DNA of 49,338 bases, from assembly GCA_013388755.1 (NCBI GenBank), contig JACAEQ010000127.1:1-49338 (forward strand), read 5' to 3'. A program made the translations under genes and the position numbers. Of this stretch, positions 22,212 through 41,020 are shown one piece after another. The notes beneath the pieces were generated by a model. That model was not told the DNA's origin. It made no database searches and saw only the letters and a program-made list of their open reading frames with translations. Source of the DNA: Chloroflexota bacterium. GTDB lineage: Bacteria > Chloroflexota > Chloroflexia > Chloroflexales > Roseiflexaceae. Every line of letters starts with the position of its first letter. The first letter of the stretch is position 1.

Positions 22212-22765
22212 CGGGTGCCCCTTTCTATACTGATTGTTGATTGCCTGGTTGCAGATTGAGAAATCCAGGGTTCAGTACCGCAGGCGCTGCACCGCCATGC
22301 CTGCCGTGTGCACAGCCGCACGCCGCGCCACGGCCACTGGCGCGCCACGTAGATTGTGCGGGTTGCCCTGTACTGCAAACGAGCGCCTGGCCACATGGGG
22401 CATACTGTGGCGCACCGGCGCAATGCGATATGTGGTGCTCGCTACGCTCCGCCTGTCCCACCTGTCGCCAGGCGGCTTTGCCGGAGCGCTTGCGGGCGGC
22501 TGCACGCCCGGGAGGCATCCGCTGATCTCTCGATGTTCCGCCGGTCAAGGGCCGGCGTTAGCCCCGCCTCGCAGCAGGGAACCTCCACCTCGTCAACTGC
22601 GGGTGCGATACCCGCAGCCCATGCGCTTGTTCCACGGTTCTACTGATCGCCACCTCCATCGTGCCCCCTGCAGCGCCGCCAGATCCGATCGCCGGCGCGC
22701 TGTTCGCATTCCGCTGCCAGCATACGCCATGCGCCATCCGGGAGTCAAGCAGTATGAAACAACTG
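22212..22765. other. Long intergenic region without a supported gene
   Basis: About 550 bp upstream of glmS. Open frames here are Arg/Ala/Pro-rich and show no motif or ribosome site, so I do not call a gene. Small hairpins exist, for example CTGCGGGT-GCGAT-ACCCGCAG near 22599-22620. It may be decayed coding sequence. Confidence 0.4.
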
Positions 22766-29144: not shown

Positions 29145-30134
29145 ATGCGACTCGAGCGAAACCTGGGAATGGATCTGGTACGCTGCACCGAGGCGGCTGC
29201 CTTACGCGCCGCTCGCCTCATGGGTCGTGGCGACAAAAACGCCGCCGATCAGGCGGCCGTTGATGCCATGCGTTTTGCACTCGACAGCGTACCGATGGAT
29301 GGCATCGTCGTGATTGGCGAGGGCGAAAAGGATGAGGCGCCGATGCTGTATATCGGCGAGAAGGTCGGCTCTGGCGAGCCGCCGGAAGTGGATGTCGCCG
29401 TCGATCCGGTCGAAGGCACGACGCTGCTCGCCGAGGGCATGCCGGGTGCCATTGCCGTCGTCGCTCTGGCCGAGCGCGGCGCATTGTATCACTGGTCCGG
29501 CATTGCATACATGGACAAACTGGCGGTCGGGCCGCAGGCGCGCGGGGCGATTGACATCAACGCGCCGGTGGAGGAGAACATTCGCAACGTCGCACGCGCG
29601 TTGAACAAGGAGGTCGAGGATATCACGGTGGTGGTACTCGATCGCCCGCGCCACAAAGACCTGATCCGCCAGATCCGCGAGACGGGCGCGCGTATCAAGC
29701 TGATCCTGCACGGCGACGTATCAGCCGGCGTCATGACCGCGATCGATGATCCGCCTGCCGATATGCTCATGGGCATTGGCGGCGCACCCGAGGCCGTCAT
29801 CACTGCATGCGCCATGAAATGCATGGGCGGCGAGATTCAATGCAAGCTCTGGCCGCGCAACGATGATGAAAGTGCGCTCGCGGCCGCCAACGGCATCGAT
29901 CTCGAGCGTGTCTATCGCACCTCTGACCTGGTGCGCGGCGAGAATGTCTTTTTCGCGGCAACCGGCATCACAGAAGGCGAGTTTCTGCGCGGGGTGCGCT
30001 ACTACGGCGGCGGCGCGCGCACCTATTCCGTGGTGATGCGCTCAACATCCGGTACGGTGCGCTACCTGGAAGCCCGTCACGACTGGAACAAATTGATGCG
30101 TATTTCGGGTGTTGATTACGCGCACGGGCGGTAG
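29145..30134 (+). CDS. glpX: Class II fructose-1,6-bisphosphatase (GlpX)
   Basis: A 329-aa gluconeogenic phosphatase (F1,6-BP to F6P; many homologues also hydrolyse sedoheptulose-1,7-bisphosphate). Class II motifs are GRGDKNAADQAAVDAMR, VIGEGEKDEAPMLYIGE, the metal/phosphate motif VAVDPVEGTTL, ILHGDVSAGVMTAI, and GIGGAPEAVITACAMKCMGG. Length matches the family. The ATG at 29145 follows AAGGAGG at 29132-29138. It is divergent from groESL across 315 bp carrying both CIRCE-like sites. Its role fits the glyoxylate-shunt genes in this window. Confidence 0.97.
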   Translation: MRLERNLGMDLVRCTEAAALRAARLMGRGDKNAADQAAVDAMRFALDSVPMDGIVVIGEGEKDEAPMLYIGEKVGSGEPPEVDVAVDPVEGTTLLAEGMPGAIAVVALAERGALYHWSGIAYMDKLAVGPQARGAIDINAPVEENIRNVARALNKEVEDITVVVLDRPRHKDLIRQIRETGARIKLILHGDVSAGVMTAIDDPPADMLMGIGGAPEAVITACAMKCMGGEIQCKLWPRNDDESALAAANGIDLERVYRTSDLVRGENVFFAATGITEGEFLRGVRYYGGGARTYSVVMRSTSGTVRYLEARHDWNKLMRISGVDYAHGR

Positions 30135-30145
30135 CACCTGGGAAC

Positions 30146-30211
30146 GGAGAATTGAGAACCGGGAATTGTGGTCGTTGCTCTTGTCTTCACATACCTGGTT
30201 CTCAATTCTCC
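30146..30211. terminator. 15-bp inverted repeat between convergent glpX and rmlA-like genes
   Basis: GGAGAATTGAGAACC (30146-30160) and its exact complement GGTTCTCAATTCTCC (30197-30211), with a 36-nt loop, start 11 bp after the glpX stop. It can form a hairpin on both transcripts. Its composition resembles the simple repeats found 3' of other genes here. Confidence 0.6.
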
Positions 30212-30222
30212 ATGCTGCGTTC

Positions 30223-31290
30223 TTACAGCACGCCGACGTGCGAATGATCGCCAAGAACCAGCCGGTACGCCTTCGGCTTGCGCGGTGAGCGGGTGATTTC
30301 GACATGCCGCCCGATCAGGCTGTCTTCCAGCCGGTGAGGCAGATCGCGGATGGTGCAATGCTCCAGTACGATCGAATGCTCAATCTCGGCGCCTTCGATG
30401 ATGCAGTTATGGTAGATCGAGGTGAATGGCCCGATATACGCATTGACGATCTGTGTGCCCTCGCCGATGATCGCCGGGCCACGAATGGTGCTGTTAATGA
30501 TCTCGGCGCCCTTCTCGATGATCACCTTGCCGATCAGATGTGAGTCGCGATCAACGAAGCCCTCCACCGACCCGGTCATCTCCTCCAGGATCAAGCGATT
30601 GGCCTCCAGCATATCGTCTTTCTTGCCGGTGTCGATCCACCAGCCATCGTGGACGTACGGGAAGACGCGCCGCCCGTGCTCAACGAGCCACTGAATGGCA
30701 TCGGTGATCTCCAGTTCGCCGCGCCACGATGGCCGGATCGCCTCCACTGCATCCCAGATGCTCCGGTCGAACATGTAGATGCCAACCAGCGCCAGATCCG
30801 ACGGCGGCTGGCGCGGTTTCTCCACCAGCCGGACAATCTGGCCGCGTTCATCAAGCACGGCGACACCATACTGTTCGGGCGACGCCACACGCTTGAGGAC
30901 AATCTGCGCATTAAAGTCGCTGGCGCCAAACTGCTGCAGCAACGGCGCGATACCCCCCTGAATGCAATTGTCGCCCAGGAACATCACAAATCGATCGTCG
31001 CCGAGAAAATCGCGCGAAATCTTCACTGCGTGCGCCAGGCCCAGCGGTTCATCCTGCTCAATGTAGGCAATCCGCACCCCCCAGCGGCTACCGTCGCCGA
31101 CGGCGGCGCGCACTTCGGCGCCCGTACTGCCAATGACCACGCCGATCTCTTCAACACCTGCATCGCGAATCGTCTCAATAACCCGGAACAGTACCGGCTT
31201 GTTCGCCACCGGAACCAGTTGTTTGGCACTGGTGTACGTGATCGGGCGCAGGCGCGTTCCCTTGCCGCCGCTCAGGACCAGTCCTTTCAT
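30223..31290 (-). CDS. Glucose-1-phosphate thymidylyltransferase (long RmlA-like nucleotidyltransferase)
   Basis: A 355-aa sugar-nucleotide pyrophosphorylase. The N-terminal catalytic domain has LVLSGGKGTRLRPITYT, NKPVLFRVIETI, VMFLGDNCIQGG, VEKPRQPPSDLALVGIYMF and DGWWIDTGKKDDML. The extra C-terminal hundred residues form a left-handed beta-helix (IGKVIIEKGAEIINSTIRGP, IIGEGTQIVNAYIGPFTSI), as in archaeal/Chloroflexota RmlA-like proteins rather than the shorter E. coli enzyme. It likely makes dTDP-glucose for deoxysugars such as rhamnose. The ATG at 31290 has AGGAAGG upstream. rmlB, rmlC and rmlD are not in the window. It fits the glycosyltransferase cluster at 2129-4804. Confidence 0.9.
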   Translation of the reverse strand: MKGLVLSGGKGTRLRPITYTSAKQLVPVANKPVLFRVIETIRDAGVEEIGVVIGSTGAEVRAAVGDGSRWGVRIAYIEQDEPLGLAHAVKISRDFLGDDRFVMFLGDNCIQGGIAPLLQQFGASDFNAQIVLKRVASPEQYGVAVLDERGQIVRLVEKPRQPPSDLALVGIYMFDRSIWDAVEAIRPSWRGELEITDAIQWLVEHGRRVFPYVHDGWWIDTGKKDDMLEANRLILEEMTGSVEGFVDRDSHLIGKVIIEKGAEIINSTIRGPAIIGEGTQIVNAYIGPFTSIYHNCIIEGAEIEHSIVLEHCTIRDLPHRLEDSLIGRHVEITRSPRKPKAYRLVLGDHSHVGVL

Positions 31291-31411
31291 TCGTACTATC
31301 CTTCCTGGCTGTTGTATGGCGCACGGCATACTCCGGCGCAAGTCACTATTGTAGCGTATGTTCGTCGCCGGCGATACACCAGGCAACCCTTCGTTGTGGC
31401 GATCGCAAACA

Positions 31412-31441
31412 GGGCGCCCGTGCAATACTGCACGGGCGCCC
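31412..31441 (-). terminator. 13-bp hairpin downstream of the NlpC/P60 gene
   Basis: GGGCGCCCGTGCA (31412-31424), ATAC loop, TGCACGGGCGCCC (31429-31441), 40 bp past the stop at 31481. On the minus strand it is followed by TGTTTGC, a weak T-tract. It lies upstream of the rmlA-like start and probably separates the two transcripts. Confidence 0.65.
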
Positions 31442-31480
31442 ATCGTCCCAGACCTTTGTTCACAGTGACGCTCTGGCGTA

Positions 31481-33091
31481 CTAGCGACGTACGCGAATGG
31501 CGCCATAGTAGCGCGATGTCCAGTACGAACCCCAGATACTCGACACCTGCACGCCATAGCGTGGTGTCATCGCATGCACCATGCGCCCGCCGCCAATATA
31601 GAGTGCCACGTGGCTGATACCGCGCCGCCCACCGGTATTCCGGAAGAAGACCAGGTCACCCGGCGCCAGGTTTTCCATCGGGCCGACGGATGCGCCGTAG
31701 GCGGTATTGAATTGCGCAGCGGCGGTACGCGGCAGGTTCACACCAAACTGGCGATAGACATAACTGGTCAGGCCACTGCAATCGAAGCCACTTCCCGGGC
31801 TTGCACCGCCCCAGCGATACCGGTACCCGACGAATTGCACCGCAAAACTGGCCACATCACCACTCGCCGGGATATTCGCCAGGCCGGCGCTGGCGCCGGG
31901 CCGCCCTCCGGCAGCGACCGGCAACGCCGGAAAATCGCGGCTGAGCGGCACCCGGCGCAACACATGCGCCGTCGTATTCACCAGATCGCTGAAAACCCAT
32001 GCCTTCGTACCATCTGGCAAGCGCACCCGCAACCAGTCCTTGTACTTGCCGATCAGGTCAAGTTGCACGCCTGCATCAATTCTGCCGACGCGGTCGTAGC
32101 GCGAGTCAGGCCCCTTGCGCAAATTGACACTATTCTCCGCAACAAAGCCAACCAGCGCCGGGTTGGGATCGGGCACCGTCTCGGCTACCAGCAGGCGCTT
32201 TACCACCGACGGATCGACATCGAGGAACTCCCCCTTGACCCAGCCATCCAGGCCACCCGGCACACCGACGTGGAACCAGTCCTGATAGATTTCGTACAAC
32301 TCGATCTGCGACGCCTGCTGCAGGCTCATCATCGGCACATAATTCGTACCGGGCCCATCGCGCAACTGCAGGCCACTCTCGCGCACCGTTGCAACCTTGG
32401 GTGGCGGTGGTGGCGGAATGGCGCTTTCCTGCACCTCGAAGAGCGTATACGATGCCGCCTCCGAGATATTCAGCAATTCGCCGGAGATCCAGTAGACCGG
32501 CGCGTCCACCCGTTCACGGATCTGGAACCAGTCGCCGTGGCGGCCTATGACCTGGATCGGCGTATCGCCTGATATGCGCCCCACCGCGTCATACTCGGTT
32601 CCAGGGCCGCTTCGCAGATAGACGCGTTCGCCTGCAACCGTCGCAGGGACGACAATCGGCGCCAGCGCCTCGCTACGGGAAATGAGCGAGAGGGGTACCG
32701 GGATGTCGCCATTATCCTCAAGCGGAGCATCACCGATTTCGGCAGCGGCATCAATGGTCAGCGGCGCCAGCGGCACCGTGAACTCACCCTCCCCCTGACT
32801 CGCCGCTGGCGCGGGGACCGCTGGCGCAAGCACACCGGGGCGAAGCTGCGACAACAGCATCGCGAGTGGAATCAACAGCACGACAAGCACATGCAGCGCC
32901 ACACGAGCCGGGAACAGAGCAAGGAGATGGGCAGGGGAACCGAACCAGGTAGAACGAAGTGTATGCCATCGGGTAGTGAGTGCCTGGGTGAGCGATGTTT
33001 GTTGCCGACGCCTGGCGAGTGCGCGCCGCTCTAACGACTCAAGACTGTACGGTTCTGACGGCGCCAGACCTCGATGACTTTGCTCGATCAT
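31481..33091 (-). CDS. SH3b-NlpC/P60 peptidoglycan endopeptidase, membrane-anchored
   Basis: A 536-aa cell-wall hydrolase. A cytoplasmic N-terminus precedes one membrane segment (VALHVLVVLLIPLAMLLSQL, about 65-84). Three bacterial SH3 domains follow: YLRSGPGTEYDAVGRISGDT, LQLRDGPGTNYVPMMSL and VNLRKGPDSRYDRVGRI. The C-terminal NlpC/P60 domain has the catalytic Cys in FDCSGLTSYVYRQFG, the His in GISHVALYIGGG, and a second His in MVHAMTP. Such enzymes cleave gamma-D-Glu-diamino-acid or related stem-peptide bonds. The ATG at 33091 has AGGAGA upstream. It is monocistronic, with a consensus-like promoter about 115 bp upstream. The exact bond cleaved is unknown. Confidence 0.92.
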   Translation of the reverse strand: MIEQSHRGLAPSEPYSLESLERRALARRRQQTSLTQALTTRWHTLRSTWFGSPAHLLALFPARVALHVLVVLLIPLAMLLSQLRPGVLAPAVPAPAASQGEGEFTVPLAPLTIDAAAEIGDAPLEDNGDIPVPLSLISRSEALAPIVVPATVAGERVYLRSGPGTEYDAVGRISGDTPIQVIGRHGDWFQIRERVDAPVYWISGELLNISEAASYTLFEVQESAIPPPPPPKVATVRESGLQLRDGPGTNYVPMMSLQQASQIELYEIYQDWFHVGVPGGLDGWVKGEFLDVDPSVVKRLLVAETVPDPNPALVGFVAENSVNLRKGPDSRYDRVGRIDAGVQLDLIGKYKDWLRVRLPDGTKAWVFSDLVNTTAHVLRRVPLSRDFPALPVAAGGRPGASAGLANIPASGDVASFAVQFVGYRYRWGGASPGSGFDCSGLTSYVYRQFGVNLPRTAAAQFNTAYGASVGPMENLAPGDLVFFRNTGGRRGISHVALYIGGGRMVHAMTPRYGVQVSSIWGSYWTSRYYGAIRVRR

Positions 33092-33204
33092 GGAGCATCT
33101 CCTGACGGTAGACCCCGCGACACACAACACATAACAGCCCGTTGTTCACAACAGGCCACGCCAGCACAGCGGGGAGTATCGTTGAAGGATCTCACGATTG
33201 CGCG

Positions 33205-33233
33205 AGTGTATCACAGGACGTTAAAAATTGCAA
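33205..33233 (-). promoter_or_regulatory. Promoter of the NlpC/P60 gene
   Basis: Minus strand: TTGCAA (33228-33233), 17-bp spacer, TACACT (33205-33210) with extended TGA. The remaining 33234-33367 interval holds an imperfect hairpin around ATGAGCAAGCTCAT and no gene. Confidence 0.65.
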
Positions 33234-33367
33234 ACGAATCATCTCTTTCACTACTACCATGCTGCGGAGCGAATGAGCAAGCTCATCGTGGAGCAGCCGT
33301 TTACCAAATATAAACCAGCTCTGCATTCCCGTCAAGCAAGCTAGCATCGTGCTATCGCCAGCGATGG

Positions 33368-34084
33368 TTAAAGATCGTCAACGATATGACGCAGGACGTC
33401 GGGAACGTCGGTAATGATCCCATCAGCCTCAAGCGCAATCAGCCGGGTCATAATGGCGGGATCATTGACCGTCCAGACATTCACGCGGTAACCGGCGCGG
33501 CGGACAAGGGGCAGCACGTGGTCAAGGAGCGGAATCTGGTAGGCCGGATGCCATGCAACGGCGCCAGCGCTTTTCAGATCGAGAAACGGCCAGCTTTCAC
33601 GGAGGCGTATATCGGGGCGAAGGGTCTGGACGCCCATCAGGTAGGCGCGGGGCAGTTCAGGCGCCACAGCGGCGATCTCAGCGAGCGCCTGGGGCCAGAA
33701 CGACGAGATCAACACCAGTTCCACGACGCGTTCATTGCGCACAAGACGGGCAACGTCAGCGCCCATGCCGGGGCCCTTGAGCTCGATATTGAGCCGCATA
33801 CCCTGATCGCGCGCGAAGGCGCATACCTCGGTCAGGGTTGCCACGCGCTCACCGCCGATGCTGAGCTGGCGCAGATCGGCAAGGGTGCAGTGCGCCACGG
33901 TCCGTCCGTGCGCTTCCCAGCGCTCCGTCGTGTCATCATGGAACACGACAAGCTCGCGATCGGCGGTGAGTTGAACGTCGAGTTCGCACATGTCGGCACG
34001 CTGGCGCACGGCAAGCTCGAACGCGCGCATCGTATTCTCCGGTGCGTATGCTGATGCGCCACGATGAGCGATCACCAGGGTCAT
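33368..34084 (-). CDS. Glycerophosphodiester phosphodiesterase (GDPD)
   Basis: A 238-aa cytoplasmic GlpQ/UgpQ-type enzyme hydrolysing glycerophosphodiesters to sn-glycerol-3-phosphate and an alcohol. Motifs: VIAHRGASAYAPENTMRAF (HRG, PEN), the metal ligands in CELDVQLTADRELVVFHDD (E, D, H), LNIELKGPG, and VNVWTVNDPAIM with a terminal DGIITDVPDVL. There is no signal peptide, favouring the UgpQ class. The ATG at 34084 has AAGGA nine bases upstream; an in-frame ATG at 34105 is less well placed. It lies 72 bp downstream of the SWIM gene, past an intrinsic terminator, so it probably has its own weak promoter. Confidence 0.93.
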   Translation of the reverse strand: MTLVIAHRGASAYAPENTMRAFELAVRQRADMCELDVQLTADRELVVFHDDTTERWEAHGRTVAHCTLADLRQLSIGGERVATLTEVCAFARDQGMRLNIELKGPGMGADVARLVRNERVVELVLISSFWPQALAEIAAVAPELPRAYLMGVQTLRPDIRLRESWPFLDLKSAGAVAWHPAYQIPLLDHVLPLVRRAGYRVNVWTVNDPAIMTRLIALEADGIITDVPDVLRHIVDDL

Positions 34085-34100
34085 AGTGTATGTTCCTTGC

Positions 34101-34136
34101 AACAAAATCCCCGCTCCAGGGGGCCGGAGCGGGGAT
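34101..34136 (-). terminator. Intrinsic terminator of the tandem-SWIM gene
   Basis: On the minus strand ATCCCCGCTCC, an 8-nt loop and GGAGCGGGGAT form an 11-bp stem (34108-34136), ending in GATTTTGTTG, 20 bp after the stop at 34156. Confidence 0.82.
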
Positions 34137-34155
34137 GGCTGGCTGATGGCGACGA

Positions 34156-34698
34156 TCAGTTCAATGCGCTAACAAGGCGCTCATCGGTGGGAATGCTACC
34201 GGGTTCGCGTGCCGCCGCCGGCAACATCGGCGCGAGTATGCGTTGCAGCGCCATGACATGCGCGCACGTGTTCCAGGTGCGGAACGTTGTGCAATCACAC
34301 ACCCAGCGCGACTCAACCAGCGTCAGCGTGTGATCGTTGTTGCTGCCACGGAACCGGGCATGCAACGAATCAATCTCGATGCGCTCCAGTTCGTGCGCAT
34401 ACCGTCGCGACTTGTCGATCATGCTGATGAGCTCGGAGTGAATGATGACCGGGCCTGGCTCGCGCGCCTCAGGCGACAGCATCGGCTCCAGCACCTTCTG
34501 CATCGTCATCACGTGTGCGCACACATGGCGCAGATGGAACACTTCGCAGTCACACTTCCAGTGACCGCCCTCAAGCCTGACCATATGCTCATTATTGCCG
34601 CCGTGAAAACGGACGGTAATCTCATCAAGTGCGATGCGCTCCGGTTCCTGCGCGTAGCGCCGGGCTTTCTCAATCTTCCCGATCAGGTCCGAGTGCAT
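34156..34698 (-). CDS. Tandem SWIM-type zinc-finger protein
   Basis: A 180-aa protein made of two copies of a module of about 80 residues, offset by 85 aa. Each module has an N-terminal helix with (K/R)RYA, a strand (F(H/R)G(G/S)NN(E/D)H), then a CxC-x8-CxH zinc site: C49, C51, C60, H62 and C134, C136, C145, H147. That spacing is typical of SWIM fingers, which mediate DNA or protein contacts. No transposase, helicase or other enzymatic domain is attached, which is unusual because SWIM fingers are commonly part of larger proteins. The ATG at 34698 has GAGGAGG seven bases upstream. The gene is preceded by a promoter-terminator unit (34821-34984) that may attenuate it, and ends in an intrinsic terminator. 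The role is unknown. Confidence 0.82.
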   Translation of the reverse strand: MHSDLIGKIEKARRYAQEPERIALDEITVRFHGGNNEHMVRLEGGHWKCDCEVFHLRHVCAHVMTMQKVLEPMLSPEAREPGPVIIHSELISMIDKSRRYAHELERIEIDSLHARFRGSNNDHTLTLVESRWVCDCTTFRTWNTCAHVMALQRILAPMLPAAAREPGSIPTDERLVSALN

Positions 34699-34820
34699 GT
34701 GCGCCTCCTCATCTATTGTATTGCCGCAGGAGCGTCAATCCGGCCAGATCCGCTTGCGCCCTGCTATGCGTCTGCTGATGGATTGCGTCGCACCGCCAGG
34801 TCTTCTCCCGCACCACGCCA

Positions 34821-34860
34821 AAAACCGAAGCGGCACAGGATCACATGATCCTGCGCCGCT
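34821..34860 (-). terminator. Intrinsic terminator of the candidate small RNA
   Basis: On the minus strand, AGCGGC and AGGATCA pair with TGATCCT and GCCGCT (34829-34860) with small internal mismatches and a 2-nt apical gap, followed by TCGGTTTTTGG. Confidence 0.7.
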
Positions 34861-34949
34861 CACGTTGCCCGATATTCACCTGGCTCTGCGATTCGCATGG
34901 CAGATGGCCCTCACTGGTGCCGCACGATCGCGCTCGTGCTTAACCTCTG
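34821..34949 (-). ncRNA. Candidate small RNA or attenuated leader
   Basis: A consensus-like promoter (34956-34984) predicts a start near 34949, and an intrinsic terminator ends near 34821, giving about 130 nt. The RNA contains no plausible ORF. Near its 5' end there is a GCACGA-GCGCGA-TCGTGC hairpin, and the terminator stem closes it. It could be an independent sRNA, or the leader of the SWIM gene if some polymerases read through. I do not recognise a known RNA family. Confidence 0.5.
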
Positions 34950-34955
34950 GTTAGC

Positions 34956-34984
34956 ATTATAGCCATCTGGACAAGACGAGTCAA
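34956..34984 (-). promoter_or_regulatory. Strong sigma-A promoter upstream of the candidate small RNA
   Basis: Minus strand: TTGACT (34979-34984), 17-bp spacer, perfect TATAAT (34956-34961). It is among the best consensus matches in the window. Confidence 0.78.
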
Positions 34985-35105
34985 GCATTACGCCAAGCCT
35001 GTTCAAAACTGCGACCGGGGCTTCCTGATGCCAAAAATCGCGCTGTATGCATTGGCATGCCGGCGCATCGCGAGGAGGCAGGTTGTCCGATCTCAACCAT
35101 TGAGA

Positions 35106-35190
35106 TGGTGGGGACGGAGGGACTCGAACCCTCACGGATCGCTCCACAAGTTCCTAAGACTTGCGCGTCTGCCAGTTCCGCCACATCCCC
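35106..35190 (-). tRNA. tRNA-Leu(UAG)
   Basis: A type II tRNA with a long variable arm. The 7-bp acceptor stem pairs GGGGATG (35190-35184) with CGTCCCC (35116-35110) with one G-T pair. The anticodon stem CAAGT/ACTTG closes the loop CTTAGGA, giving anticodon TAG (Leu, CUN codons). The T-arm has GGTTCGAGTCC. The discriminator A at 35109 is followed by an encoded CCA (35108-35106). A perfect 7-bp hairpin (ATCTCAA...TTGAGAT, 35091-35107) immediately follows and may help end or process the transcript. Confidence 0.95.
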
Positions 35191-35201
35191 ACGACGCCTT
35201 T

Positions 35202-35231
35202 ATTCTAGCATGTGGTCGGTGCCGCATGCAA
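35202..35231 (-). promoter_or_regulatory. Promoter of tRNA-Leu
   Basis: Minus strand: TTGCAT (35226-35231), 18-bp spacer, TAGAAT (35202-35207) with extended TGC. The -10 box ends 11 bp before the tRNA 5' end. Confidence 0.6.
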
Positions 35232-35260
35232 CTCAGGGCTGTCTGGTGCGTGTTCAGATG

Positions 35261-35337
35261 TACCGCCGAGCACGCAGAGGAGCGCAGAGCATGGGCCTTT
35301 TGAAATCCTCTGCATCCCTCCGCACCCTCTGCGGTAC
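35261..35337. repeat. Imperfect palindromic GCAGAGG repeat
   Basis: TACCGCCGAGCACGCAGAGG and GCGCAGAG on one arm answer CTCTGC, CTCCGC and CCTCTGCGGTA on the other, around an A/T-rich centre. This resembles the widespread ACCGCAGAGGCGCAGAGG-type interspersed repeat of bacterial genomes. The remainder of 35191-35472 is non-coding. Confidence 0.6.
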
Positions 35338-35472
35338 ATACGTGTTCGGTACATGTGTCCACTATCCGCATAATGGCCGAGAGCCTCGCTGCCACAGGCC
35401 TTACTGCAGAATCAGCGGCACCACATAACCTCGTCTGACCCACGGCTGGATGCTCCGGGCAACCCGGCGCCG

Positions 35473-36819
35473 CTATCCTCGAATAATCGCCAGTGCCTCG
35501 TCGCGGCGACGCTCCATTTCGTCGCGCGTCGTCGCCTCCAGGTTCAGGCGCACCAGCGGTTCGGTGTTCGAAGCACGCACATTCATGTGCCAGGTAGGAT
35601 ACGTCACCGACACACCATCGAGATACTCGACAACACCATCGGCGTACGCTCTGGCCAGCGCTTCCATCCGCCCACGGGGGTCGGCAACGGTCGAGTTGAT
35701 CTCGCCGGAGATAAAATACTTCGCCTCCAGCGGCGCCAGCAACGCCGACATTGACTGGCCGCTGGTTGCCAGCATCTCCATGATCAGTAATGACGGAATG
35801 ATCCCCGAGTCGGCATAATTGAAATCGCGGAAGTAGTAATGCCCGGTGACCTCGCCGCCAAACAGGGCATTTTCGTCGGCCATGCGGCGCTTGATGAAGG
35901 CGTGGCCGACGCGTTCCATGAGTGGCGTGCCGCCGGTGGCGCTGATCAAGTCGCGTACCGCCCACGAAGCGCGCACGTCATAGACGATGTTGCTGGCCGG
36001 CGCGCGTTGCAGCAGGTAGCGTCCCAGCAGCGCGGTCAGAAAATCGCCCGACACAAACCGGCCGCGGTCATCGATGACGAAGAAGCGATCGCCATCACCA
36101 TCGAAAGCGAAACCGGCCGCGGCACCTTCGGCAACCACGCGCTGCTCCAGTTCGGCGCGATTTTCAGGCTGCAACGGATCGAGACCATGGTTGGGCAGAT
36201 TGCCGTCCGGTTCGAGATAGAGCCCGATGAACTCGATCGGCAGGCGCTCATATATCCGCTGGAGTATCGGGCCGACCGTGCCATTACCAGTGTCGGCGAC
36301 GAACTTGAGCCCTTTGCCGCGCAGTCGCTCGACGTCAATCAGGCCAAGCACCGCCTCAACGAACTCGTCCGACAGGTCGAGCGATCGCATACTACCGGTG
36401 CGCGATGCCGTTGCATACGCGTCCTGCTCGACGATGCGGCGCAGATCCTGAATACCTTCGGCGCCACTCAGCAGATAGGGCATCTGGCGCACCATTTTGA
36501 AACCATTGTACTGCTTCGGGTTATGCGAGGCGGTCACCATCATACCTGGCAGGCCGAGCCTGGTACACGCAAAGTAATACTGATCGGTGCTGACCAGGCC
36601 GATATTCACCACGTCGGCCCCCTGCTCCATAATGCCGCGGGTGACAGCTGCAAAGATCGACGGCCCTGACAGGCGCATGTCGTGGCCGACAATCACCTGA
36701 CTGGCCTGGAGAAAGGTAACGAATGCCCGCCCGATGGCATAGGCGCCTTCTTCGTTCAATTCGGTAGGATAGATGCCGCGAATGTCGTAAGCTTTGAAGA
36801 TGCCGGGTGTTATCTGCAT
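35473..36819 (-). CDS. manB: Phosphomannomutase/phosphoglucomutase
   Basis: A 448-aa alpha-D-phosphohexomutase interconverting hexose 1- and 6-phosphates, feeding GDP-mannose or UDP/dTDP-glucose synthesis. The four family signatures are visible: IFKAYDIRGIYPTELNEEGA, the phosphoserine loop TASHNPKQYNGFKM (Ser near residue 96), the metal loop FDGDGDRFFVID, and the sugar-recognition GGEVTGHYYF with the C-terminal VRASNTEPLVRL phosphate site. The ATG at 36819 starts the conserved sequence and has AGGA upstream; open sequence further upstream is antisense to the SDR gene and is not coding. It likely supplies substrate to the nucleotidyltransferase and glycosyltransferases in this window. Confidence 0.95.
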   Translation of the reverse strand: MQITPGIFKAYDIRGIYPTELNEEGAYAIGRAFVTFLQASQVIVGHDMRLSGPSIFAAVTRGIMEQGADVVNIGLVSTDQYYFACTRLGLPGMMVTASHNPKQYNGFKMVRQMPYLLSGAEGIQDLRRIVEQDAYATASRTGSMRSLDLSDEFVEAVLGLIDVERLRGKGLKFVADTGNGTVGPILQRIYERLPIEFIGLYLEPDGNLPNHGLDPLQPENRAELEQRVVAEGAAAGFAFDGDGDRFFVIDDRGRFVSGDFLTALLGRYLLQRAPASNIVYDVRASWAVRDLISATGGTPLMERVGHAFIKRRMADENALFGGEVTGHYYFRDFNYADSGIIPSLLIMEMLATSGQSMSALLAPLEAKYFISGEINSTVADPRGRMEALARAYADGVVEYLDGVSVTYPTWHMNVRASNTEPLVRLNLEATTRDEMERRRDEALAIIRG

Positions 36820-36946
36820 TCCCTGTTCCTTTCTTGCGACTATCGGCGCGCGGGTGGGCGGAATGCCATACGCCGCATTCAGGTGATAGAATGCAACTGA
36901 AGTTGATGGAAGGCCTGAAGCGTCGGGCGCCGTGTGTACCGGCCCG

Positions 36947-36955
36947 ATTATAGCA
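36947..36955 (-). promoter_or_regulatory. Extended -10 promoter of manB
   Basis: Minus strand TGCTATAAT with no good -35. The leader is about 120 nt. It faces the divergent SDR gene, whose own promoter I cannot identify. Confidence 0.65.
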
Positions 36956-37009
36956 TCAATCACTGCTGCGGCAGTGTGCGTGCTGCAACGCAAACGAAGG
37001 AAACGCACC

Positions 37010-37813
37010 GTGGCACTGCGAGGCAGTCTGGTTGTCGTCACCGGCGCATCGTACGGGATCGGCGCGGCGGCGGCGCGCGTCTTCGGCAGAAATGGCGCGC
37101 GCGTGGCACTGCTGGCGCGAACCGCCGCCGCGCTTGACGCGGTCGCATACGACATTCGCGCGCAGGGCGGCGTGGCGCAGGCGTACCCGGTTGACCTGAC
37201 CGATGCGCCGGCGGTTGCCGCTGTGGCGCAGCATATCATCGCCGACCTTGGCATTCCTGACGTGCTGTTGAGTAATGCCGGCTCAGGGCGCTGGTTGTTC
37301 GTGGAGGAAACCGAACCCGATGAGGCTGTGGCCATGATGGCGATGCCGTATTTCGCGGCATTCTACATCACACGGGCGTTTCTGCCGCCGATGCTGGCAC
37401 GCGACCGTGGTCACCTGGCCTATGTCAACTCGCCGGCGTCGCTGGTTGCATGGCCGGGCGCAGCGGCATACACTGCGGCGCGCTGGGCACTGCGCGGTTT
37501 TGTCGAGGCGCTGCGCGCCGATCTCCACGGCACCCGCTTACGAGTGACATCGATCATACCCGGCCTGGTGGCAACGACCTATTTTGAGCACAACCCCGGC
37601 GTCCTGGAGCGCGCGCCCGGACTGGCACGGCGCCTCCTGCCGACGCTGACCGCGGAAGAGGCCGCTACAGCCATTGTGCGCGGCATTGCGCGCGGCGACC
37701 GTGAGATCATGATGCCGGGCAGGTTGCGCCTGCTGTATGCCGTCCATGCCGTGGCACCGAGGCTGGTACGCTGGCTTACCGTGGCGACCGGCGCAAAACG
37801 CGGCGAGCGCTAA
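37010..37813 (+). CDS. SDR-family protein with altered catalytic residues
   Basis: A 267-aa short-chain dehydrogenase/reductase fold. The nucleotide motif TGASYGIG and the NAGS turn are intact, with GARVALLART and DLTDAPAVA between. The active site is atypical: YVNSPASLVAWPG supplies the Ser, the Tyr is present in AAAYTAARWALRGF, but the YxxxK lysine is Arg (YTAAR), and the usual Asn of helix 4 is missing (MPYFAAFYITRAFLP). Activity may be altered or lost. The start is the GTG at 37010 behind GAAGGA. It ends 2 bp from the convergent small gene. The substrate is unknown. Confidence is high for the family, low for the function. Confidence 0.88.
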   Translation: MALRGSLVVVTGASYGIGAAAARVFGRNGARVALLARTAAALDAVAYDIRAQGGVAQAYPVDLTDAPAVAAVAQHIIADLGIPDVLLSNAGSGRWLFVEETEPDEAVAMMAMPYFAAFYITRAFLPPMLARDRGHLAYVNSPASLVAWPGAAAYTAARWALRGFVEALRADLHGTRLRVTSIIPGLVATTYFEHNPGVLERAPGLARRLLPTLTAEEAATAIVRGIARGDREIMMPGRLRLLYAVHAVAPRLVRWLTVATGAKRGER

Positions 37814-37815
37814 TA

Positions 37816-37980
37816 CTACGCCGCCTCGCGAAAATATTCCCCACTGATCAGCTCGAATACCAGCTGATCAAGCGTCACTTCCGCCTCGTGATAGGTCCGC
37901 GCGAAGCCAACCAGTTCGCCGTCAAGATACATGGCGTAGTCGTGCGTGTCGCGGTCGTAGATGATTTCTTTGCAGTACAT
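37816..37980 (-). CDS. Small conserved-looking hypothetical protein (54 aa)
   Basis: A 54-aa acidic protein, with MYCKEIIYDRDTHDYAMYLD and then GELVGFARTYHEAEVTLDQL, ending in FELISGEYFREAA. The composition and the GGGGAAGAG ribosome site before the ATG at 37980 support a real gene; a consensus-like promoter lies 80 bp upstream. The first half looks like a beta-hairpin and the second like a helix. I recall similar short proteins in Chloroflexota, but no function is known to me. It converges with the SDR gene with 2 bp between stops. Confidence 0.75.
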   Translation of the reverse strand: MYCKEIIYDRDTHDYAMYLDGELVGFARTYHEAEVTLDQLVFELISGEYFREAA

Positions 37981-38059
37981 GCTCTTCCCCCGATCGTGTG
38001 ATGGCCGTTGCGGCTGCCATGGACGCTGGTTCGAGGTCACCCGGTGACTGACCACCCAT

Positions 38060-38087
38060 AGTATAGCACATGTGTTCTATCTGTCAA
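38060..38087 (-). promoter_or_regulatory. Promoter of the 54-aa gene
   Basis: Minus strand: perfect TTGACA (38082-38087), 16-bp spacer, TATACT (38060-38065) with extended TGC. A second TTGACA lies at 38269-38274 on the same strand without a matching -10. Confidence 0.72.
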
Positions 38088-38210
38088 GTGTCTGGAGTGA
38101 CGCTGGTCACGCGCGCAATCGGCCAGCCAGGCGTATGCCAGGGCCCGCCCGCCCGCGGGACGGCGTTCTTTTCCGCGTTGCGACCGCCTTCCCACCGCCG
38201 GATGATTGAC

Positions 38211-38235
38211 CCTGGAGGGCGGCCCGCCCTCCAGG
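38211..38235. other. 11-bp palindromic hairpin in the 37981-38365 intergenic region
   Basis: CCTGGAGGGCG, GCC loop, CGCCCTCCAGG. It has no T-tract on either strand. Apart from this and the small-gene promoter, the 385-bp interval shows no gene. Confidence 0.5.
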
Positions 38236-38365
38236 CCACCCTGCTGGTACGCCACCGCGGACGTTGTGTCAAGTGACCCCTGCGCTTGCGGCACATGACC
38301 GGCTCGGGTATGATGTCGCTCTGGTTGTTTCTGCGTGATGTCGCTTATTGATCCAGGACGCTGCC

Positions 38366-41020
38366 GTGCGCCGTCCCGTTCGTTCTGGCATCGCCCGCTA
38401 CGCCGCTTTCCTGGCCGCGCTGAGGCGGGCGTTGCCTGGCGCGATCGTGGTGCTCCTGCTGGTATCTGGCGCGCGCGTCGCTCAACCGCACCAGCACGTC
38501 CGTGTCGCTGATCCGGATGCACGCAGGATGCTGGCTGGCTTCCACGCGCTCGAACAAAATCCAACCGATGTCTTCCGCTGGTCGCGCCCGGACGCCGCAC
38601 TGTTCCTCTCTGGCTTCGACGGGCGCCCGGCGTTTGTGACCCTGCGCCTGGCGGCGCCACGTGACGCTGGCGATCCGCCGCCGCTCCTCGTGGTGAGTGT
38701 GCGTGGCCGTTCGATGGGATCGTTTGTCGTGGCGCCGGAGTGGCGTCACTATCGGGTGCTCATCGCGACCGATCCGGCCGGTGACACGCCGTTGCTGCTG
38801 CGCACGGCCGCCTATCGCCCCGCCGGCGACGCGCGCGATCTGGGAGTGGCGCTCGCGGCGATCACTACCGCGCCGGTGCTGCACGTCGCGTGGTTTCCGC
38901 CGCCGGTGCGCGCCATCTTTCTCGGCTCGTGGCCGCTTCTCGGCTGGCTGCTGCTTGTCTGGCGCTCCCGGCCCACAGGCCGGCGCGCATCCGTCGCGCG
39001 CTGGTCGGGAGTGACCCTGCTGGCGCTACTGGCCGGCTGGGCCGCTGCATTTCCGGTGACTTCCGGCTATCTGCTGCCCACGATCGGCTGGCCGTGGTGG
39101 CCGGTGCTCCCGATTGTGATGATCGTTGCCTGGCCGTCGGTTCTCTCGGTGGTGCGCCAGGGTGCCGGCTATGCGCGTTCCGCCGCACCGCGGTCGTTCT
39201 GGAGTGGCGTGGGCCTTGCGTTCGCTGCGGTCATCGCGATGCGTCTGGGAGTATCGCCGGTCGTCGGATTTGCCATACTTGCCGCCGGGGTGGCTCTGGC
39301 TGTCACCACTATCGGCGAATGCCACGCCGGCGCTCTGGCTCACGAACGTGCAGGAGGCGTGCCGGTGCTGCGCGGCGAGGCGCTGGCGCTGGCTGGAATA
39401 ACCGCCGCTGCGCTTGTGCTGCGGCTCTACCGCCTGGATGATCTGCCTGCCGGCCTGTGGCGTGACGAGGCGCGCCACGGCCTGCTGGCGCTCCAGATCT
39501 GGAACGACCCATCCTACAGGCCGGTCTACGTGGTCGCCGGGGCGGATCTGCCGGCATTACTGTTCTACCTGATGGCGCCAGTGCTGGCGTTGCTGGGGCC
39601 GGGTGCAGGTGCCGCACGGCTGGTGAGCGCAGTGGCGGGGGCGCTGATGCCGCTGGCACTCTGGTGGGCAGCGCGGCCAGTCATTGGCGCGCGGGCGGCG
39701 GTATACGGCGCGGCGCTGCTTGCCTGGGCGTCATGGGGGCTAAGCATGAGTCGCTGGGCCTTTCCCGCGACTCTCGATCACCTGCTGGAACTGGCGGCCG
39801 TCGGGTGCATGTGGCGCGCGCTTGCGCCGCAGATGCTGTCGAATCGCGGCAACAGACGACGCGCACTGGCCGGCATGGCGCTGGCCGGCGCGCTGGCCGG
39901 CATGGCTGCCTATGCCTATCATACCGGTCGCCTGGCACCGCTTACGCTGGCACTGTTGACCGCGTTGCGTCTCGGTCGCGACGGGCGCGCCTGGCGTCAC
40001 GCAGCAGCGGCGCTCGCCGCCGCCATGATTGCCGGCCTGCTCGTGCTCACACCGCTGCTCCGATTCATCCTGGAGGATTTCGAGGGATACAACCGGCGCA
40101 CCGGCGCCGTGGCAATTGTCAACAGCGAGGATCTTGAACAGCGCGCTCCCCTGCTGTTACTGTTCAACAACGGTCTGCGCTACCTATTTATGTGGCATGT
40201 GTCAGGCGATCCTAACGGTCGCCATCATGCGCCGGGCGCGCCCATGCTCGATCCGCTGGCTGGAACGCTTCTGGCTATGGGCATCGGGCTGGCGGCGCGC
40301 TGGCGCCCGGGTACGCGCGTGCCACTGGCCTGGGTCGCACTGGCGTTATTGCCCGGCATATTCAGCACCGATGCCCCGCATGCGATGCGGTCGCTTGGCG
40401 CGCTGGCGCCGGCATGCATGCTCGCGGGTGCAGCACTCGATGGCATGCATCGTGCAACGTCTGGCGCGGTACCACGCCGCCGGGCGAATGGCGCCATCGT
40501 GCCGACGATCCTGGCCGTGAGCCTGGCATTCAATACCTGGCTCTATTTCGACGTGATGCCGCATGACCCGGCAGTGTATCGCGAGTTCGACCTGATCGAA
40601 ACTGCCATGGGGCGGGCCGCCCGGGCACCGGCGCTATCGTCTGATCCCGAGATGCAGGCGGTCCAGGTCTATCTCGACCGGCGCGTGGCCGGCAGCGATG
40701 TCGTCCGGTTCTTGACGACCGGGCTGAGGATCGGCGTTTTCGACGGTGCGCAGTTGTCACAACCGGCGGGCCGGAGCGCCCTTGTGCTGCTCCTGCCGGA
40801 CACCGCCGCAACGGAACGCGCGGCCGCCCTGGCCGCCCTCGGGCCGTCGGCCCGTGAACTGGTCGCGCCGTGCTTCCCCGATGGCAAAGCACCGCTGTTC
40901 ATCGCCTATAGCGTAGGCGACGGCGCGCAACGGTTGCTGGAAGAAACGTTTGGCCCCTACCTGCCGGTCAGCAGAAATTCGCCATACTCCGCAGCGATGG
41001 TAAAACCCAGGCGCCTGTAG
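38366..41020 (+). CDS. GT39/ArnT-like integral membrane glycosyltransferase
   Basis: A protein of 884 aa from the GTG at 38366 (a TTG at 38348 is possible). About a dozen hydrophobic segments, a soluble region around residues 40-170, and a C-terminal soluble tail. The central segment LRLYRLDDLPAGLWRDEARH carries the Asp-Glu pair expected in the first external loop of PMT/ArnT-type (GT39, GT-C) enzymes, which transfer sugars from polyprenyl phosphates outside the membrane. Further support comes from WGLSMSRWAFPATLDHLLEL and YAYHTGRLAPLTLALL. The last 64 bp overlap the 3' end of the convergent acetyltransferase gene. It is longer than typical GT39 proteins because of the N-terminal domain. Acceptor unknown. 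Confidence 0.82.
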   Translation: MRRPVRSGIARYAAFLAALRRALPGAIVVLLLVSGARVAQPHQHVRVADPDARRMLAGFHALEQNPTDVFRWSRPDAALFLSGFDGRPAFVTLRLAAPRDAGDPPPLLVVSVRGRSMGSFVVAPEWRHYRVLIATDPAGDTPLLLRTAAYRPAGDARDLGVALAAITTAPVLHVAWFPPPVRAIFLGSWPLLGWLLLVWRSRPTGRRASVARWSGVTLLALLAGWAAAFPVTSGYLLPTIGWPWWPVLPIVMIVAWPSVLSVVRQGAGYARSAAPRSFWSGVGLAFAAVIAMRLGVSPVVGFAILAAGVALAVTTIGECHAGALAHERAGGVPVLRGEALALAGITAAALVLRLYRLDDLPAGLWRDEARHGLLALQIWNDPSYRPVYVVAGADLPALLFYLMAPVLALLGPGAGAARLVSAVAGALMPLALWWAARPVIGARAAVYGAALLAWASWGLSMSRWAFPATLDHLLELAAVGCMWRALAPQMLSNRGNRRRALAGMALAGALAGMAAYAYHTGRLAPLTLALLTALRLGRDGRAWRHAAAALAAAMIAGLLVLTPLLRFILEDFEGYNRRTGAVAIVNSEDLEQRAPLLLLFNNGLRYLFMWHVSGDPNGRHHAPGAPMLDPLAGTLLAMGIGLAARWRPGTRVPLAWVALALLPGIFSTDAPHAMRSLGALAPACMLAGAALDGMHRATSGAVPRRRANGAIVPTILAVSLAFNTWLYFDVMPHDPAVYREFDLIETAMGRAARAPALSSDPEMQAVQVYLDRRVAGSDVVRFLTTGLRIGVFDGAQLSQPAGRSALVLLLPDTAATERAAALAALGPSARELVAPCFPDGKAPLFIAYSVGDGAQRLLEETFGPYLPVSRNSPYSAAMVKPRRL

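Follow-up and report, generated by a model that had tools for sequence, protein, structure and literature searches.

The region directly upstream of a tandem SWIM zinc-finger gene in a Chloroflexota bacterium of the Roseiflexaceae is probably the 5' part of the SWIM mRNA, acting as a ribosome-coupled transcription attenuator with a logic like that of the E. coli ampC and pyrBI leaders. In the window, by which we mean the whole 49,338-nt stretch of contig JACAEQ010000127.1 that was analysed, the layout on the minus strand runs from a promoter through a Shine-Dalgarno sequence, a mini-ORF, its stop codon on the terminator stem and the terminator hairpin to a second Shine-Dalgarno sequence and the SWIM gene. 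The same layout recurs in Chloroflexales, Herpetosiphonaceae, Anaerolineae and probable Dehalococcoides genomes, with almost no sequence in common.

The sigma-70-type promoter TTGACT-17-TATAAT lies at 34956-34984 on the minus strand. The sequence-only reading had counted it among the strongest in the window, and it does score 11/12 and shares the top score with one other site across 30,000-40,000, a region with 10 promoter sites against 2.9 ± 1.8 in shuffles. An imperfect inverted repeat, GCTAACC-AGA-GGTTAAGC (34938-34955, minus strand), spans the predicted transcription start at about 34948-34951, and a GTTAAG motif occupies its position in many Chloroflexales. Elsewhere in the window, another strong promoter, TTGACA-16-TATACT with a TG element (38087-38060, minus strand), is located 5' of a small ORF at 37816-38055.

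The intrinsic terminator that the same reading had placed downstream of the promoter is also present. The hairpin occupies 34820-34861 on the minus strand, with a 15-bp stem (34861-34828) followed by CGGTTTTTGG, the tail being CGGTTTTT. The 130-nt leader transcript folds with -59.7 kcal/mol, compared to -44.7 ± 3.7 kcal/mol for shuffled sequences (z = -4.1). Covariation and conserved synteny with SWIM had been proposed as a check. The leader is linked to SWIM across the phylum, and in 20 Chloroflexales hairpins the covariation score is 0.296 against 0.175 ± 0.018 after shuffling, a value reached by 0 of 500 shuffles. The GCGG/GCCGC core is invariant in these 20 hairpins and the covariation lies elsewhere in the structure. 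Chance explains neither the promoter nor the hairpin, and both are real. Most Chloroflexales have a T tract that is interrupted and shifted (for example CTTGATGTTTT), which may make the hairpin a weak, leaky terminator there; canonical T tracts follow it in Anaerolineae and others. The hairpin might instead serve mRNA stability or processing, with the stop codon on the stem allowing the ribosome to protect or unwind it. This would account for the interrupted tracts but not for the canonical ones, and we regard it as highly improbable.

According to the sequence-only reading, nothing between promoter and terminator looked coding. This is contradicted by a 12-codon mini-ORF, MRIAEPGEYRAT, at 34860-34898 on the minus strand (ATG at 34898, TGA at 34862-34860), whose position is conserved and which is led by the Shine-Dalgarno sequence GAGGG (34908-34912, minus strand) 9-10 nt 5' of the ATG. 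The mini-ORF is below the length limit of the window's ORF list, and was recognised because DNA conservation in five Roseiflexus-group genomes begins, in most of them, near its start. These genomes encode the peptides MRIK/ETPVEY..., MRSEAPVEYGTA (twice) and MRSKMPVGYGTA, the latter two types ending at a stop codon. In addition, they keep the promoter and the hairpin between tRNA-Leu(UAG) and SWIM. Across relatives, the mini-ORF starts with ATG, GTG or TTG behind an AAGGAGG-like Shine-Dalgarno sequence. The complete peptides are MKTCVTTWLRVV in Chloroflexus islandicus, MKIYVQYMSP in Herpetosiphonaceae, MKISFSLTTYPVT in Anaerolineae and MLKILIFYHLNKLRV in probable Dehalococcoides genomes, whereas that of Oscillochloris and Ca. 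Chloroploca begins with MGAK; the layout is found in Roseiflexus as well. Chloroflexus retains MKTCVTT with synonymous changes while the remaining peptide varies freely. In its codons 2-7, synonymous and nonsynonymous differences number 21:22 in frame versus 3:43 and 10:50 out of frame (49% synonymous versus 7% and 17%), with the third position varying most. The same synonymous excess was sought in the Oscillochloris and Roseiflexus types of mini-ORF, and none was found. Since the excess is confined to Chloroflexus codons 2-7, the position of the mini-ORF, rather than its sequence, is its main conserved feature.

In Chloroflexus leaders (for example L035, L045 and L049), an upstream CTCC could pair with the GGAG of the mini-ORF Shine-Dalgarno sequence in all copies. 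Sequestration of the Shine-Dalgarno sequence in the leaders is weak (mean z -0.5) and is suggestive in Chloroflexus only, where the CTCC..GGAG pairing is a possible second control layer.

The upstream regions compared came from close relatives, from 80 named loci of GTDB genomes and from 55 further genomes across the phylum. The layout is absent from families f16, f27, f37 and f43 and from the Roseiflexaceae genus g8, in which tRNA-Leu(UAG) and a canonical terminator stand directly 5' of SWIM with no mini-ORF (L042, L044, L046, L050, L093, L094 and L096). In the window, tRNA-Leu(UAG) is the upstream neighbor (35106-35190, minus strand), an adjacency conserved in Roseiflexaceae only. The SWIM gene (34156-34698, minus strand), with its Shine-Dalgarno sequence AGGAGG at 34704-34709 on the same strand, begins 129 nt beyond the hairpin; in relatives this distance is mostly 30-75 nt, with a median of about 48 nt. 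The sequence-only reading had left a choice between an attenuator controlling SWIM and an independent small RNA beside tRNA-Leu. A stand-alone micro-gene or small RNA sitting before SWIM by chance would explain why promoter and terminator form a self-contained unit, and the 129-nt gap in the window leaves it some space. However, the unit stays with SWIM across the phylum and not with the tRNA, the hairpin is only 30-75 nt from SWIM in most relatives, no further copy of the leader was found in the same genome, and a scan for promoter-like sites in the window returned none on this strand from the hairpin to SWIM. The small RNA was therefore rejected on spacing and linkage, and we give it very little chance of being the main function. 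The attenuator option, by contrast, is supported by the phylum-wide linkage and by a gap too short for a second promoter in most relatives. Since this gap has no room for another promoter, the SWIM mRNA most likely shares the leader promoter and would have to cross the hairpin.

The geometry was evaluated in 135 dereplicated SWIM loci with cumulative criteria: a promoter of at least 10/12, a hairpin with a T tail, a start codon led by a Shine-Dalgarno sequence, and a stop codon at or in the hairpin. These retained 94, 85, 74 and 52 loci, respectively, compared to 1.8%, 0.5%, 0 and 0 of 1,620 dinucleotide shuffles and to 38, 9, 2 and 1 of 734 control genes taken from 40 stretches of 20 kb, drawn from four relatives and the window. 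Promoter and hairpin were both present in 96 loci, and in these the start codon was picked only by Shine-Dalgarno strength and start-codon type, blind to the stop. The stop codon lies at or in the hairpin in 61 loci; in 23 others, among them Herpetosiphon and two Roseiflexus loci, it lies past the hairpin, and in the remaining 12 it precedes it. The 61/96 compare to 12/96 and 27/96 in the +1 and +2 frames, and to 34% in shuffled bodies (P = 2e-9). In 34 very divergent leaders, the stop is at or in the hairpin in 20, versus 4 and 8 in the other frames; counted from the stem base, positions -3 to +6 hold a stop 12, 0 and 2 times by frame. All of these tests take the dereplicated loci as independent, which holds only roughly. 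The modal placement has two bases of the stop codon inside the stem, and the window is no exception: the last two bases of the TGA at 34862-34860 are the first two of the terminator stem.

This placement bears on autoregulation by the SWIM protein. SWIM fingers have been proposed as binders of nucleic acids or proteins. By binding either the conserved GGCGGC..GCCGCC hairpin or the repeat that spans the transcription start, the protein might control read-through or initiation, with the mini-ORF only tuning the outcome. The invariant hairpin core in the 20 Chloroflexales and the presence of the inverted repeat in several clades are in line with such binding. On the other hand, hairpins of different classes share no sequence, being CACGCG..CGCGTG in Anaerolineae and GGCACCGG.. 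in Dehalococcoides-type genomes, and the layout with the stop on the stem is retained despite this complete change. Autoregulation also leaves the position of the stop codon unexplained, and we find it doubtful.

Ribosome-coupled attenuation would account for the stop codon as follows. RNA polymerase would start at the strong promoter and transcribe the mini-ORF with its Shine-Dalgarno sequence and then the hairpin. Should the hairpin be transcribed before any ribosome has come to the mini-ORF's end, it would form and transcription would stop after about 130 nt. A ribosome at or near the stop codon would instead cover about 10-12 nt past it, which is most of the 5' arm, so that the hairpin could not form and the polymerase would continue into SWIM. 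SWIM output would then track the loading of ribosomes and the completion of the mini-ORF relative to the polymerase, and the signal would therefore be growth rate or translation capacity, or else a condition under which release at the stop codon is slow. In position, the window has what such an attenuator needs, with a terminator-like hairpin in the leader and a ribosome binding site and ORF placed for a ribosome to cover it. The sequences themselves show the parts and their link to SWIM, a stop codon placed non-randomly, no amino-acid codon runs, no conserved antiterminator and, in most relatives, no room for a second promoter. We infer that the hairpin terminates in vivo and that the mini-ORF is translated, and likewise the direction of control (translation as ON) and the signal. 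Mini-ORFs that run through the hairpin, as in Herpetosiphon, the two Roseiflexus loci and others, would also fit occlusion by the ribosome. Against attenuation stand the interrupted T tracts, the stops before (12/96) and past (23/96) the hairpin, the missing synonymous excess in mini-ORFs other than those of Chloroflexus, and the lineages without the layout.

A mini-ORF ahead of a terminator is also the hallmark of leaders of the trp, whiB7 or erm type, in which its translation favors termination and ribosome stalling, specific to a drug, an amino acid or the peptide, would switch on SWIM by means of an alternative RNA fold. The MKTCVTT that Chloroflexus keeps with synonymous changes would suit this mechanism, as would a slight pairing of the leader with the 3' arm of the terminator (mean z -0.8). 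However, repeated regulatory codons or amino-acid runs were sought in the mini-ORFs of divergent leaders and none were found, leader pairing with the 5' arm, as expected of an antiterminator, stays at the level of chance with a mean z of about +0.2 to +0.4, and the peptide is unconserved between clades. With neither codon runs nor a part of the leader that competes for the 5' arm, a trp-type switch is unlikely, and a ribosome at the stop codon is the predicted conserved means of opening the hairpin that remains. Distance argues in the same direction. Amino-acid attenuators hold the terminator more than 20 bp from the stop codon (PMC4824070), whereas this distance is near 0 in the SWIM leader. 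Measurements in E. coli show that the ribosome represses a terminator almost fully when it lies a few bp past a stop codon, and that about 30 bp are needed to recover it; a terminator 30 bp past an AUG, however, loses only about 10% of its efficiency to translation, the ribosome being behind the polymerase (PMC4824070). Because of this small loss, attenuation at the SWIM leader would require the polymerase to pause there, or else its effect would be modest and graded.

We prefer to read the SWIM leader as an attenuator whose general type is known, but whose conservation in geometry only we did not find described. In E. coli ampC, the leader carries a ribosome binding site and a minimal start-stop ORF just before the terminator; the ribosome blocks termination and expression follows growth rate. 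Both leaders thus place a ribosome binding site and a short ORF directly ahead of the terminator. They differ in that ampC is a single enterobacterial gene with a start-stop ORF, whereas the SWIM leader has an ORF of 10-20 codons, another target and a phylum-wide distribution; growth-rate control is a property of ampC and would be a prediction for SWIM. In E. coli pyrBI, a coupled ribosome on the leader ORF represses the terminator, with a steep dependence on the distance from stop to terminator as the work is cited in PMC4824070. The mini-ORFs of Herpetosiphon and the two Roseiflexus loci run through the hairpin as the pyrBI leader ORF does. Unlike pyrBI, however, the SWIM leader normally has its stop on the stem, and its target is no pyrimidine gene. 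The pausing tract of pyrBI is U-rich and UTP-sensitive; inspection of the window leader showed no T run of at least 4 between start and hairpin. The trp, his and ilv leader-peptide attenuators likewise have a short translated ORF before a terminator, translation of the SWIM mini-ORF being predicted, and differ in their regulatory codon runs, their antiterminator and their stop-to-terminator distance. Rfam cis-regulatory families occupy a similar 5' position, but neither the window leader, at gathering and permissive cut-offs, nor the leaders of 17 relatives matched any Rfam covariance model. A search of the open literature for SWIM in Chloroflexi and for attenuators in Chloroflexus yielded no paper on either, and no published description of this leader.

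More tentatively, the leader could be a phylum-old Chloroflexota attenuator that senses ribosome availability and sets the SWIM level for translation or stress homeostasis. Its sequence would drift, and selection would perhaps act on geometry alone, namely the Shine-Dalgarno sequence, the 10-20 codons and the stop on the terminator stem. What usually reveals a leader-peptide attenuator is its codon runs or a conserved RNA fold, and the SWIM leader would escape both searches because only its stop-to-stem spacing is kept across the phylum. If confirmed, it would mean that geometry alone can preserve the occlusion of a terminator by the ribosome for very long periods, and it would provide a search rule for other such leaders. 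It would also draw attention to a widespread, uncharacterised Chloroflexota protein.

The SWIM family is present in 235 of 301 sampled Chloroflexota genomes. The window member, the presumed target, is a 180-aa protein with two CxC..CxH SWIM motifs. It carries the CxCxnCxH motif and matches PF04434 with an E value of 0.007, under the Pfam gathering score; membership in the SWIM zinc fingers is seen at the family level, 14 of 19 members matching PF04434 (best E 1e-6). The predicted structure is confident (pLDDT 87) and consists of two copies of one unit: a helix at the N terminus, three strands, and short helices around the zinc motif. A comparison with PDB folds gave no match (best E 0.13), and no sequence relatives were found among solved structures. 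In the tandem-SWIM protein of locus L030, the CDC of the first finger is changed to HDH, which suggests the loss of one zinc site. A GDPD phosphodiesterase gene (34105-33368, minus strand) comes next after SWIM in the window, and the same order is found in Chloroflexus (L102) and Chloroploca (L118). A second strong hairpin with a T tail (34136-34107, minus strand) lies between the two genes. An Rfam scan of the whole window at the gathering cut-off returned glmS and tRNA only, the former being a glmS ribozyme/riboswitch (RF00234, 68.8 bits) at 22435-22638 on the minus strand.
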